A DNA stretch of 24,310 nt. Origin: a virus. The translations under genes were made by a program, and so were the position numbers. Shown here piece by piece: positions 3,203-17,237 of the stretch (position 1 is the stretch's first letter; each line of letters starts with the position of its first letter). The notes beneath the pieces are model-generated. The model was not told the origin of the DNA, did not search any database, and saw only the letters and a program-made list of their open reading frames with translations. Location: IMG/VR virus record IMGVR_UViG_3300021057_000034, positions 1 to 24,310 of that record, one strand, 5' to 3'.

Positions 3203-3356
3203 GCTTAACCACCTCCTTTGGTTTATTTGAAACTTCTAATATGACTACTGCGTCCCGTTCTGCTAACTCCTGTGCCGTCTTATCATCCATCTCAACGACA
3301 TCTCCAACGTTCCACCCCGTATTTACAAATCCTTTACTTACTCGAACTATCGCCAT
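3156..3356 (-). CDS. Small late protein, head-region accessory
   Basis: The ATG at 3356 is preferred over a GTG at 3365 because AGGAGGTGA sits 8 nt ahead of it, and the GTG would overlap that site. The 66-aa product starts MAIVRVSKGFVNTGWNVGDV and resembles the short beta-barrel proteins often found near phage head genes (pattern 'G..v.vgdvv.l.d..A..Li..g.av'). It ends with a very basic Lys/Ser tail (KHGSKSKGKTKNSKRN). The resemblance is weak, so the function is left open. It overlaps its downstream neighbour by 47 nt. Confidence 0.65.
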   Translation of the reverse strand: MAIVRVSKGFVNTGWNVGDVVEMDDKTAQELAERDAVVILEVSNKPKEVVKHGSKSKGKTKNSKRN

Positions 3357-7926: not shown

Positions 7927-7943
7927 ATATTGAGGTTGCTCTT

Positions 7944-7971
7944 ATATTACTTCACATTTTATAAATTGCAA
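7944..7971 (-). promoter_or_regulatory. Candidate late promoter
   Basis: On the minus strand TTGCAA (7971-7966) lies 16 nt before TAATAT (7949-7944). Transcription from about 7937 would cover the whole packaging and head operon. The spacing is slightly short and the -35 imperfect, which would suit a promoter that needs an activator. A 17-bp palindrome lies about 30 bp upstream. Confidence 0.45.
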
Positions 7972-7992
7972 GGGGATAAAATGAGGCCAAAC

Positions 7993-8021
7993 TTGACATT
8001 GAGTTACATTGTATGTAACAT
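7993..8021 (+). promoter_or_regulatory. Plus-strand promoter with embedded palindromic operator
   Basis: Consensus TTGACA (7993-7998) and TAACAT (8016-8021) are separated by 17 nt. A perfect 17-bp dyad, GTTACATTGTATGTAAC (8003-8019), fills the spacer and overlaps the -10, so a dimeric repressor bound there would block the polymerase. The same site sits upstream of the minus-strand late promoter and could act there too. The bound protein is not identified in this window. Confidence 0.65.
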
Positions 8022-8062
8022 CTTTTTAAGCGCAGAATTTCTAATATAATAGAAGTTTTCAG

Positions 8063-8091
8063 TTGAAGATTTCTATGCGGATTGTTATAAT
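8063..8091 (+). promoter_or_regulatory. Plus-strand promoter (consensus -10)
   Basis: TTGAAG (8063-8068), 17 nt, then perfect TATAAT (8086-8091). The predicted transcript starts near 8098 and runs antisense across the 37-codon minus-strand gene at 8141-8254. No plus-strand gene follows before the terminator at 8659-8692, so the product would be a noncoding or antisense RNA. Confidence 0.55.
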
Positions 8092-8105
8092 GCGCTAAAG
8101 AGAAG

Positions 8106-8140
8106 ATATTTCGGAGGAGCTGCTTTCTCCCCCGAGATAC
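8106..8140 (-). terminator. Terminator of the 37-codon gene
   Basis: A 14-bp stem (8106-8119 with 8127-8140) and a 7-nt loop begin directly after the TAA at 8141. On the minus strand it has two G-U pairs and one mismatch and is followed by the moderately U-rich ATCTTCTCTTT. The plus-strand version has two A-C mismatches and is weaker, which supports use on the minus strand. Confidence 0.65.
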
Positions 8141-8254
8141 TTACTTACCTTTCGGCAAATAAATACCTAGTTTTTTATTCAAATAAAGATCCTTGACCTT
8201 AGCGCCAAGGATTACCTCTATTTGTTTTTTTGTGAGTTTTTTTATTTTACTCAC
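8141..8254 (-). CDS. 37-codon basic protein with unusual start region
   Basis: The frame reads VSKIKKLTKKQIEVILGAKV and continues to LYLPKGK-like basic residues (ending GIYLPKGK) before a TAA that is followed at once by a hairpin terminator. It is a small, Lys-rich, helical and possibly DNA-binding product. An excellent AAAGGAGGTGA site overlaps the GTG at 8254, so that GTG is too close to be served by it. The in-frame codon at the ideal 8-nt distance is ATA (8245). A five-codon frame ATG-AAA-GGA-GGT-GAG-TAA starts at 8264 and ends just upstream. Initiation may therefore be at GTG, at ATA, or by re-initiation after the mini-frame. Its site between phage control promoters suggests a regulator, but no family is recognised. 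Confidence 0.45.
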   Translation of the reverse strand: MSKIKKLTKKQIEVILGAKVKDLYLNKKLGIYLPKGK

Positions 8255-8278
8255 CTCCTTTCATAGACGTTAAACTGA

Positions 8279-8313
8279 TAATAAGTCACTCAGTAAAACT
8301 TTGAGTGGCTTAT
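8279..8313 (+). other. 13-bp hairpin, possible bidirectional terminator
   Basis: AATAAGTCACTCA (8279-8291) and TGAGTGGCTTATT (8301-8313) pair along all 13 positions on the plus-strand RNA (one G-U), with a 9-nt loop. The ends are A-rich and T-rich, but no real U-run follows. It may end or stabilise the antisense RNA from 8063-8091, or lie in the leader of the 37-codon gene. Confidence 0.5.
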
Positions 8314-8658
8314 TCCAGCTATTAGCCCACGAAAGATAACAAGGGGTGTCTCCTCCTAAATATATCCTCTTTTAAAGTGCATGAAAAAAGCTCTCCTTGC
8401 ACGGCCCTAGAACATTACTGTTACCAGGACTGTACAAAAAGAGCTAGTTGTAAAATTCTTGATAACTGCAAATTGTCTGGCCGTGTCTCGTAATACAACG
8501 AGAATGCATTTATTCTAATGAAATATATACTAAAAATCAAGAGGTATTTATTACCCATCTCTTACTCGCTTTTTGTTGCAGATTTAAGTACAAGAAGTAA
8601 TATGCGTCTATGATATCTTAAATCGCCTGATAAGGGCATTGTGTGAAAAAAACCAAAA
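8314..8658. other. Gene-free segment next to the integrase module
   Basis: No convincing gene lies in this 345-nt stretch. It holds interlocked inverted repeats that could form a pseudoknot (8389-8394 with 8440-8445; 8400-8406 with 8479-8485). It also holds a 6-bp hairpin TCTCGT/ACGAGA (about 8486-8503) and a small GGTA/TACC hairpin near 8543. The position downstream of the integrase genes suits an attachment site with integrase arm sites, but no core repeat can be defined without the integrated form. No tRNA-like sequence is seen. Confidence 0.4.
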
Positions 8659-8692
8659 CAGCTTACGCGGGGGGCTTCGTAGGCTGTTTTTT
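8659..8692 (+). terminator. Bidirectional rho-independent terminator
   Basis: CAGCTTACG (8659-8667) pairs with CGTAGGCTG (8678-8686) through 9 bp with one G-U on the plus strand, around a 10-nt loop, followed by TTTTTT (8687-8692). The A/C-rich run before it reads GTTTTGGTTTTTTT on the minus strand, so it should also end the integrase transcript, whose last gene stops at 8691. It insulates the integrase unit from the control region. Confidence 0.85.
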
Positions 8693-8828
8693 ATTTCTTC
8701 GTCTTCATTTTTTTCTCCACCATCTTAAGAAGTGCGTTTCTATAATCTCGTTCTTTACGCAGTATTGTCCTGTAATGATAAACGCTACCAAGTAGCATTA
8801 CAAATAATAAGGCAACAAGAAATGCCAT
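8691..8828 (-). CDS. 45-aa single-helix membrane protein after integrase
   Basis: The product begins MAFLVALLFVMLLGSVYHYR, a clear N-terminal membrane helix (residues 2-17). A highly charged cytoplasmic tail follows, rich in Lys/Arg/Glu (KERDYRNALLKMVEKKMKTKK in part). It starts 5 nt beyond the integrase stop and ends at the terminator stem, so it is the last gene of the integrase transcript. Small membrane proteins in prophage lysogeny units sometimes act in superinfection exclusion; whether this one does cannot be read from its sequence. Confidence 0.7.
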   Translation of the reverse strand: MAFLVALLFVMLLGSVYHYRTILRKERDYRNALLKMVEKKMKTKK

Positions 8829-8832
8829 AGCA

Positions 8833-9837: not shown

Positions 9838-9859
9838 GCGCAAATTACTATAGTAATCT
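9831..9859 (+). promoter_or_regulatory. Early promoter with palindromic operator
   Basis: TTGACA (9831-9836), 17 nt, TAATCT (9854-9859). A perfect 14-bp palindrome, ATTACTATAGTAAT (9844-9857), covers the spacer and most of the -10. This is the same layout as at 7993-8021, although the half-site spacing differs (TTAC-N4-GTAA here, TTAC-N7-GTAA there). Transcription from about 9866 would enter the early operon. Confidence 0.7.
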
Positions 9860-9866
9860 TAAAGGA

Positions 9867-9928
9867 AGAGAACGAATACTCCTGACTTTCTGCTATAAGC
9901 CCAGCATGAAGTCAAGCATTCATTCTCT
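9867..9928 (+). promoter_or_regulatory. Stem-loop at the predicted 5' end of early mRNA
   Basis: Two nested imperfect inverted repeats are present: AGAGAACGAAT (9867-9877) with ATTCATTCTCT (9918-9928), one mismatch; and GACTTTCTGCT (about 9884-9894) with AGCATGAAGTC (about 9903-9913), one mismatch and one G-U. Together they make a stem-loop of 62 nt that ends 9 nt before the first early ATG. It also contains an 11-codon frame, ATG at 9906, that stops within the next start region (CTATGAATG). A protective or regulatory role is inferred. Confidence 0.55.
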
Positions 9929-9937
9929 AACAAACCT

Positions 9938-10204
9938 ATGAATGATTATAGCACCAGGACAACCCAAACTCAAGCAGAGACTATTTTAAAACAGACTGCT
10001 GATCTTTATCATCAGGCGCTCTTTCACAGAAGCGAAGATGAGAAGCTTTATTCCTTTGTCTGCGATAACGTTTTGCTTCTTAAAGATAAATATAAGGTAA
10101 AACCTTCTGCAATAAAACGAGCACTTGGACTTGAGTATGCGCAAACAGTTGAACACATGATTAAAAAAGCTAAGGAAAAAGGAGGTGAGGTACATGGTCA
10201 ATAA
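9938..10204 (+). CDS. First early gene, unknown helical protein
   Basis: An 88-aa product beginning MNDYSTRTTQTQAETIL, highly charged and predicted to be helical. The segment YKVKPSAIKRALGLEYAQTVEHMIKKA (about 51-77) may contain a helix-turn-helix-like turn (PSAIKRALGLEYAQTVEHMI), so DNA binding is possible. It has no ribosome site and follows a structured leader. Being first in the early operon it may be a regulator, but no family was recognised. Its last 11 nt overlap the next gene. Confidence 0.7.
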   Translation: MNDYSTRTTQTQAETILKQTADLYHQALFHRSEDEKLYSFVCDNVLLLKDKYKVKPSAIKRALGLEYAQTVEHMIKKAKEKGGEVHGQ

Positions 10205-15995: not shown

Positions 15996-16328
15996 ATGAA
16001 AAAGAAAAAGCACGAGCATGAGTTTAAGAAACGATATCTAGATTTAGAAACTAATGAAATGGAGAAGTTTTGTGAATGTGGAAAAAGTCTTTCCGAGGAT
16101 AGAGAAGAGCTTATGAGGTGGATGAGCAAGCATACACCCAATTTATATGAGCAAATTACTCCCCCCAAGAAAGAGATAGAGAAGTTGGAATTTGAAGGAA
16201 TCGGTCTAGGTCCCATAAAAGAATCATCGGCAAATGAGATAAGAATAAGACAAGCCATGCAGCACGACAAAATAAACGAAATAATAGACCGTCTAAATAC
16301 GTTATTAAATACTCAAGACAGAGTATGA
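15996..16328 (+). CDS. Hypothetical protein with H/C zinc-like motif
   Basis: A 110-aa charged product. The N-terminal HEHEFKKRY and KFCECGKSL provide His and Cys pairs (His6/His8 and Cys26/Cys28) that could hold a metal. The rest is helical, with a C-terminal heptad-like segment (DKINEIIDRLNTLLN). It overlaps the following zinc-ribbon gene as ATGA and is in the last gene pair before the structured RNA. Confidence 0.65.
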   Translation: MKKKKHEHEFKKRYLDLETNEMEKFCECGKSLSEDREELMRWMSKHTPNLYEQITPPKKEIEKLEFEGIGLGPIKESSANEIRIRQAMQHDKINEIIDRLNTLLNTQDRV

Positions 16329-16468
16329 AACAATTCATCATACATTGTTGTAAGTGTAAGAAAGAACACACCGTAACAGCCGAGAGAAAGGAAGATGTGA
16401 TGTGTCCTGAACATAAAGAGATGGAAGAGTGTGAAAGACGACAGGTATATGTAGTGAAGGAAAGGTGA
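16325..16468 (+). CDS. 47-aa zinc-ribbon miniprotein
   Basis: The product begins MKQFIIHCCKCKKEHTV. Cys8/9, Cys11, Cys27 and His30 (HCCKCKKEH and MCPEHKE) make a plausible zinc site. It is very charged. Its TGA stop forms the first base pair of the structured RNA that follows, so translation to the end would disturb the base of that stem. Function unknown. Confidence 0.65.
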   Translation: MKQFIIHCCKCKKEHTVTAERKEDVMCPEHKEMEECERRQVYVVKER

Positions 16469-16560
16469 TTGAGAGAGTTTCGTGGATTGCGGGATGTCCC
16501 TGAAGAATAAGGGGAAGCCGAAAGGTTGCGCCACCTCCTACAATCCACCAAGCTCTCAAT
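16468..16560 (+). ncRNA. Structured RNA element upstream of the sigma4/alpha-CTD gene
   Basis: This is the larger part of a 121-nt gap, the largest gap within the early operon. P1 pairs ATTGAGAG (16468-16475) with CTCTCAAT (16553-16560), P2 pairs GTGGATTG (16482-16489) with CAATCCAC (16541-16548); both are perfect 8-bp helices. P2 may extend by GGGA (16491-16494) with TCCT (16536-16539). Inside, CCCT (16498-16501) can pair with AGGG (16510-16513), and AGCC-GAAA-GGTT (16516-16527) makes a GNRA tetraloop hairpin. The outcome is a rod topped by two hairpins. It does not match a riboswitch, ribozyme, tRNA or 4.5S pattern I know. No U-run follows. It could be a leader element of the next gene or a separate processed RNA. 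Confidence 0.7.
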
Positions 16561-16589
16561 TAAGAGCCTGTTAGAAATTTATAAAAGAT

Positions 16590-17237
16590 ATGAAAAATGC
16601 GAGTGCAATAGTACAACTTCAGATGAGGTTAGAGGAAGCCATTGAAGTTCAACGGCGTTATATTGGAAAGATAAGATTGTTACGAGCAATTATGGGATCT
16701 TTACATAGTGGGGCGGCAAAAACATGGGAACAGTCAATAGACGAAGTTTTAGAAACTTTAAGTCCTCGTGAGAATAAAGTTTTAAGATTGCGATTTGGAT
16801 TAGACGGGAATAAACCACAGGACTTAGAAACAGTAGGACGACAATTCGGTGTAACTAGAGAGAGAATAAGACAGCTTGAGGCGAAAGCAATTCGCAAACT
16901 AAAACATCCTTCCCGCAAACGAGTTATTTTAGGTGAGAGTTGGCAGATGGCAGTCCAAGAAGCAAAGGCAGAGGGTGTTAAGTTGATTAAAGAATATCAG
17001 CAACTACGAACAAAACCAATGAAACAGATTTCTATAAATCCCAATCCCAATGATGAGCTTATGGTAGATGAACTCAATTTGCCCACAAGGGTTATAAATG
17101 CTCTCTATCGTGCAAATATAGATAAAGTAGGTGTATTACGCCGAACTCCAGTAGAGATGTTAGAAACAATAAAAGGCTTAGGGAAAAAAGCGGTTATTAA
17201 GATTCAAGATGAAGTTAAAAGAAAAAGCCAATCATGA
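16590..17237 (+). CDS. Sigma region 4 fused to RNA polymerase alpha-CTD-like domain
   Basis: A 215-aa product. Residues about 57-108 ([17 protein letters not shown], then [19 protein letters not shown] and [10 protein letters not shown]) match region 4 of primary RpoD-type sigma factors, including the 4.2 helix-turn-helix. Residues about 160-212 ([41 protein letters not shown]) match the helix-hairpin-helix fold of the RNA polymerase alpha C-terminal domain. Sigma region 2 is absent, so it cannot melt promoters alone. The combination suggests a regulator that docks on the beta flap and on DNA or UP elements, redirecting host polymerase to phage promoters. It lies just after a structured RNA. 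The domain calls are strong; the mechanism is inferred. Confidence 0.85.

Follow-up and report, generated by a model that had tools for sequence, protein, structure and literature searches.

Does the RNA encoded in a strongly folding gap of a phage early operon control the transcription regulator gene that follows it, or does it serve the early messenger RNA in a more ordinary way? The question is raised by a 24.3-kb virus record (IMG/VR record IMGVR_UViG_3300021057_000034; the whole stretch of 24,310 nt is here called the window), in which the plus-strand early operon is made up, according to the ORF listing, of small genes that overlap or lie close together. Between the 47-aa gene and the regulator gene of Table 1 lies a non-coding gap of 121 nt (16469-16589), and a preliminary description had placed in this region a structured RNA of 93 nt that might sense a signal or bind RNA polymerase.

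The gap, its flanking genes and the predicted fold

The hairpin region (16468-16560, plus strand) adjoins the TGA stop codon (16466-16468) of the upstream gene, the product of which had no match in the Pfam and PHROG searches. In the downstream protein, the domains Sigma70_r4 (5.7e-16) and RNA_pol_A_CTD (3.8e-11) were found using Pfam, and the initial call of a sigma4/alpha-CTD gene is thus right. Regulators joining sigma region 4 to an alpha-CTD were observed in the window and in locus L161 (2869-3516), both without sigma region 2, and the regulator of locus L005 (4701-5303) features sigma region 4 and an apparent HTH domain, also without sigma region 2. The linker between hairpin and regulator contains neither a U-tract nor a clear Shine-Dalgarno sequence, and its in-frame TAG (16572-16574) makes the ATG at 16590 the earliest start possible for the regulator. 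Based on the gene packing, the 47-aa gene and the regulator gene appear to be co-transcribed.

Table 1. Coordinates of the flanking genes, the linker and the predicted helices of the hairpin.
Feature	Position	Strand	Basis
Gene of 47-aa Cys-rich (possible zinc) protein	16325-16468	+	ORF listing
P1, 5' arm, favoured register (partner 16550-16557)	16473-16480	+	minimum free energy fold
P2, 5' arm, GUGGAUUG (partner 16541-16548)	16482-16489	+	minimum free energy fold
P3, 5' arm, GGGA (partner UCCU, 16536-16539)	16491-16494	+	fold
Apical hairpin 1, CCCU-GAAGAAUA-AGGG	16498-16513	+	minimum free energy fold
Apical hairpin 2, AGCC-GAAA-GGUU, GAAA tetraloop	16516-16527	+	minimum free energy fold
P3, 3' arm, UCCU	16536-16539	+	minimum free energy fold
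P2, 3' arm, CAAUCCAC	16541-16548	+	minimum free energy fold
P1, 3' arm, AAGCUCUC	16550-16557	+	minimum free energy fold
A/U-rich linker, 29 nt, up to regulator start codon	16561-16589	+	sequence, upstream-sequence table, terminator scan
Gene of regulator with sigma region 4 and RNA polymerase alpha-CTD, 215 aa	16590-17237	+	Pfam, NCBIfam

As modelled by folding, the gap encodes a stable, isolated, intergenic and branched RNA hairpin. The predicted stem is composed of P1 (8 bp), P2 (8 bp) and P3 (4 bp), with a single C.C mismatch between P1 and P2 and a 1x1 mismatch between P2 and P3, giving about 22 stacked positions, and P3 leads into a three-way junction bearing both apical hairpins. The two 8-bp complements on which the preliminary description was built (16468-16475 with 16553-16560, and 16482-16489 with 16541-16548) are present at these coordinates, and its two apical hairpins, one of them GAAA-capped, are borne out in the predicted fold. 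The outer helix likewise exists, but a GAGAGAG run makes two P1 registers possible and the favoured one is shifted to the position given in Table 1, the register described earlier being 3.6 kcal/mol weaker (-34.8 vs -38.4 kcal/mol). The last base of the stop codon, previously counted among the paired bases, is unpaired in the favoured register of the 93-mer, and the possible extension of the stem appears in longer folds only, as weak UUGA/UUAA and AGGU/GCCU pairing.

With regard to stability, the fold of the 93-mer (-38.4 kcal/mol) was not reached by any of 200 dinucleotide shuffles (z -4.39), which makes the RNA thermodynamically exceptional; that a structured RNA lies directly 5' of the sigma4/alpha-CTD gene agrees with the earlier claim. 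Across measurements, z ranged from -4.4 to -5.5, and the hairpin ties for the lowest energy among all 95-nt segments when both strands of the record are scanned (mean -15.9, sd 5.7). The minus strand of the hairpin region folds well too. In the other measurable plus-strand gaps of the early operon, a hairpin of comparable strength was not found.

Elsewhere in the window, a stretch of about 900 nt flanked by the integrase and a 62-aa gene (7927-8832, minus) is without a clear gene and carries several strong minus-strand hairpins, one of which, at about 8376-8470, has a U-run at its end and resembles a terminator. Additionally, where the integrase and the early operon diverge, a long imperfect minus-strand hairpin is present (9844-9943, z -4.5), which could be an operator or leader.

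Relatives of the RNA, the regulator and the terminase

The hairpin region had no Rfam match to a riboswitch, ribozyme, 6S or other family at the gathering score and only chance-level matches at E up to 10 (best 14.9 bits), consistent with the earlier statement that it fits no familiar riboswitch, ribozyme or housekeeping RNA pattern. Resemblances to ribozymes and cobalamin-like RNAs were considered and set aside, any model match being absent. The Rfam search of the loci of five relatives returned nothing, and the tRNA/tmRNA search found none. Among phage and plasmid records, blastn revealed no significant DNA homologue, and a piece of a Vibrio phage (E 0.1) was judged to be a chance match. Viral contigs contained zero matches to the exact core pattern and the helix pattern, and a covariance model with the window as its sole sequence recovered only the window, both in 32 whole records and in 39 sources. 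Further, the flanking 110-aa protein as bait did not lead to a relative of the RNA, and nothing was found using the Cas4-like neighbour protein. As an RNA homologue was not found in these searches, a conserved core was not recognised and there was nothing to align for covariation.

When the sigma protein was used as bait, L001 was the only close relative (60% identity over residues 24-135); with this and the 110-aa protein as baits, the sole other match, L169, was judged spurious from its neighbour genes. The L001 regulator starts 4 nt past a RusA-like gene and has no structured gap. The terminase as bait yielded 80 related loci, among which a sigma4-type gene is present in L005/L006 only, as an HTH-sigma4 fusion with a 141-nt gap 5' of the gene. 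The hairpin in the L005 gap (-55.6 kcal/mol, z -8.2) is similar to that of the window in position and stacked-helix plan, but its sequence is unrelated and its apex different. In L161, a sigma4/alpha-CTD fusion of equal length lies 1 nt past its neighbour without a hairpin, and L088 and L089 feature a 36-nt gap without a comparable hairpin. Such a hairpin was considered as a possible signature of sigma4 genes, an idea that was rejected since L005 fits but L001, L088/L089 and L161 contradict it. Scans of genome contigs did not find a sigma relative. The same contigs included four terminase relatives, in mixed bins (a Micrarchaeota-labelled MAG, Thermoanaerobaculia, Anaerolineaceae and Gammaproteobacteria), which do not fix the host.

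Gap hairpins were also assessed across the terminase-related phages. The shuffles were of the mononucleotide type and the genes came from a simple caller, and the z figures of this clade are therefore comparative rather than absolute. In a first pass, 57 of 468 gaps had z below -4; in a second pass, run with controls, a z below -5 was reached by 16.3% of the same-strand gaps (n = 263) compared to 0.7% of the coding segments (n = 584). The window's own gap was missing from the automatic count, probably due to a competing antisense ORF (16156-16551, minus), and was measured separately; its z of -5.2 is matched in extremity by 12.9% of the gaps but only 0.3% of the coding segments. The strong hairpins of the clade precede many gene types, such as lysozyme-like and portal genes, and some of them are ordinary terminators; as a whole they may be a mixed class including terminators and coupling hairpins of other kinds. 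The hairpin begins at the upstream stop codon in 15 of 59 strong gaps vs 14 of 131 weak ones. In L044 (minus strand, at 380, 958, 1826 and 2135), four related gap hairpins each start at the preceding gene's stop codon; they show some compensatory changes, and in their four-row alignment 90% of cells pair and four pairs have two-sided changes, a covariation exceeding that of all slid versions, albeit in a small sample of paralogues.

Two further observations concern this clade. The stop-codon region pairs with the downstream RBS and ATG in L009 (5067-5137), L055 (minus, upstream gene ending at 3342), L050 (6359) and L032 (15955), for example as CATAG...CTATG, and these gap hairpins are likely translational-coupling hairpins. 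In addition, the loop UUGGGCAGG is common to hairpins of L005 (2689), L008 (1418), L053 (2682) and L055 (17178, minus), the stems of which are unrelated, and the 10-mer GTTGGGCAGG occurs six times in 32 records vs zero times for the reversed control, being hairpin-borne in some cases only; this may be a small conserved RNA motif.

A probable intercistronic mRNA hairpin and its alternatives

Strong intergenic hairpins being frequent in related phages, we regard an ordinary intercistronic hairpin of the early-operon mRNA, with a processing or insulating role, as the most likely reading, and hold it with about even confidence. Such a hairpin would form after the transcript, and the ribosome that completes the 47-aa gene, have passed, and would present an A-form duplex, about 22 stacked positions in length, whose tip is branched. 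Host RNase III could cut this duplex, as at the early sites of phage T7, or its sheer stability could shield the 3' side of the upstream mRNA and keep translation of the sigma4/alpha-CTD gene apart from that of the preceding overlapping genes. The regulator starts 30 nt 3' of the hairpin, in a stretch that is A/U-rich and open. The analysis provides the predicted fold, its position and rarity and the enrichment of gap hairpins across the clade, from which cutting, stabilising and decoupling are inferred.

The minimum target of RNase III is 22 nt of double-stranded RNA (PMC5371410), and the near-continuous duplex of about 22 positions characteristic of such a site is found in the predicted 8+1x1+8+1x1+4 arrangement, as is the placement between same-strand genes, here with putative co-transcription. 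Coupling between genes is reduced by structure just 3' of the stop codon according to a review (PMC12548453), which fits an insulator. The GAAA-capped branched apex exceeds the needs of a simple processing site, and as the other measurable gaps of the operon have no comparable hairpin, its location in front of the regulator might be relevant. If the processing or insulating reading is correct, the locus adds a well-defined example to the evidence that these little-studied metagenomic phages commonly keep the messages of a densely packed operon apart by means of RNA hairpins between genes.

A chance or neutral structure without function is unlikely: homologues were not found and selection on the sequence is hence not evidenced, but so extreme a z (-4.4 to -5.5) was reached by just 0.3% of the coding control segments and the hairpin stands exactly between two genes in an operon that otherwise overlaps.

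We consider rather unlikely a dedicated leader controlling expression of the regulator through binding of RNA polymerase, a protein or a ligand, for example as a put-like antiterminator or a sensor. The branched apex with its GAAA tetraloop, the position directly 5' of the gene of a polymerase-binding regulator and the very strong hairpin likewise preceding the sigma4 gene of L005 speak for it. Nevertheless, Rfam matches are within chance even at the permissive threshold, the empty homologue search leaves no conserved core, the L005 hairpin differs in sequence and apex, a gap is missing in front of the regulators of L001 and L161, and clade hairpins stand before genes of many types. The sensor or polymerase-binding RNA of the preliminary description thus gained no positive evidence beyond position and decorated apex. 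Its most specific form, a new class of leader RNA in which a long stem interrupted by mismatches carries a three-way junction capped by GAAA, and which would sense a signal or bind polymerase and time expression of a sigma4/alpha-CTD regulator of late genes, is very doubtful; the regulatory reading, if true, would add a new RNA switch acting on a phage transcription regulator.

It is quite unlikely that the hairpin is a translational coupling switch, with the regulator silent until a ribosome reaching the end of the 47-aa gene opens the structure. The 5' arm begins at, or at most 5 nt from, the stop codon, RNA unfolding has been proposed as a coupling mechanism (PMC12548453), and in clade gaps (L009 5067-5137, L055 and L050) the stop of the upstream gene does pair with the RBS and ATG of the next one. 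In the window, however, the start codon follows 30 nt after the end of the 3' arm, and a downstream RBS or start hidden until upstream translation was not found. When a ribosome on the stop codon was modelled by blocking the bases up to 16480, P1 alone opened, P2 and the apex remaining, and the mean unpaired probability of 16575-16602 was 0.64 compared to 0.63 in the free RNA; this unchanged exposure of the sigma start argues against a switch that hides the start codon. Competition between folding and translation of the 47-aa gene, as first suggested, is therefore possible for P1 but does not extend to P2, the apex or the exposure of the sigma start. Further, structure right after a stop codon is reported to lower coupling (PMC12548453), which would make the hairpin an uncoupler.

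A DNA-level structure or mobile inverted-repeat (MITE-like) insert, not acting as RNA, is highly improbable, as the near-symmetric arms and the well-folding minus strand are offset by a single copy in the record, no copies in the phage and plasmid collections and flanks (AAAGGTGA / TTAAGAG) without an obvious target-site duplication; multiple copies and such a duplication were thus not seen within the record and the flanks. A factor-independent terminator or attenuator is extremely improbable: the stem is strong, GC-rich and placed at an operon boundary, but it is followed by AAUUAAGAGCC and not by the U-tract of intrinsic terminators, which 16558-16589 lacks, and the terminator scan called no plus-strand terminator at the hairpin.

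Comparison with known systems

The HK022 put RNA and 6S RNA are polymerase-binding RNAs. Similar to these, the window features a structured RNA positionally tied to transcription control (for put, the comparison is by description only), but in contrast to 6S RNA it has no Rfam 6S match and no large central bubble. The coupling hairpins of phage f1 VII/IX and MS2 lysis (PMC12548453) likewise lie near an upstream stop codon, whereas in the window neither the linker nor the start codon is part of the hairpin and their predicted exposure is independent of the upstream ribosome. The hairpins of terminase-related phages (L005, L009, L044, L048 and others) share with the window the placement in a same-strand gap, often from the upstream stop codon, and a comparable z, but differ in sequence, and several of them pair the downstream RBS or start, which the hairpin of the window does not.

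The RNase III sites of the T7 early operon are, like the hairpin of the window, long imperfect hairpins between co-transcribed early genes that end 5' of the next start, and the T7 record, folded identically, yielded mismatch-interrupted hairpins in gaps 0.4/0.5 and 1.2/1.3, just 5' of the next gene. Compared to these sites, the predicted duplex of the window is longer and more regular and has a branched tip with a GAAA tetraloop, and sequence similarity to any phage record is within chance.
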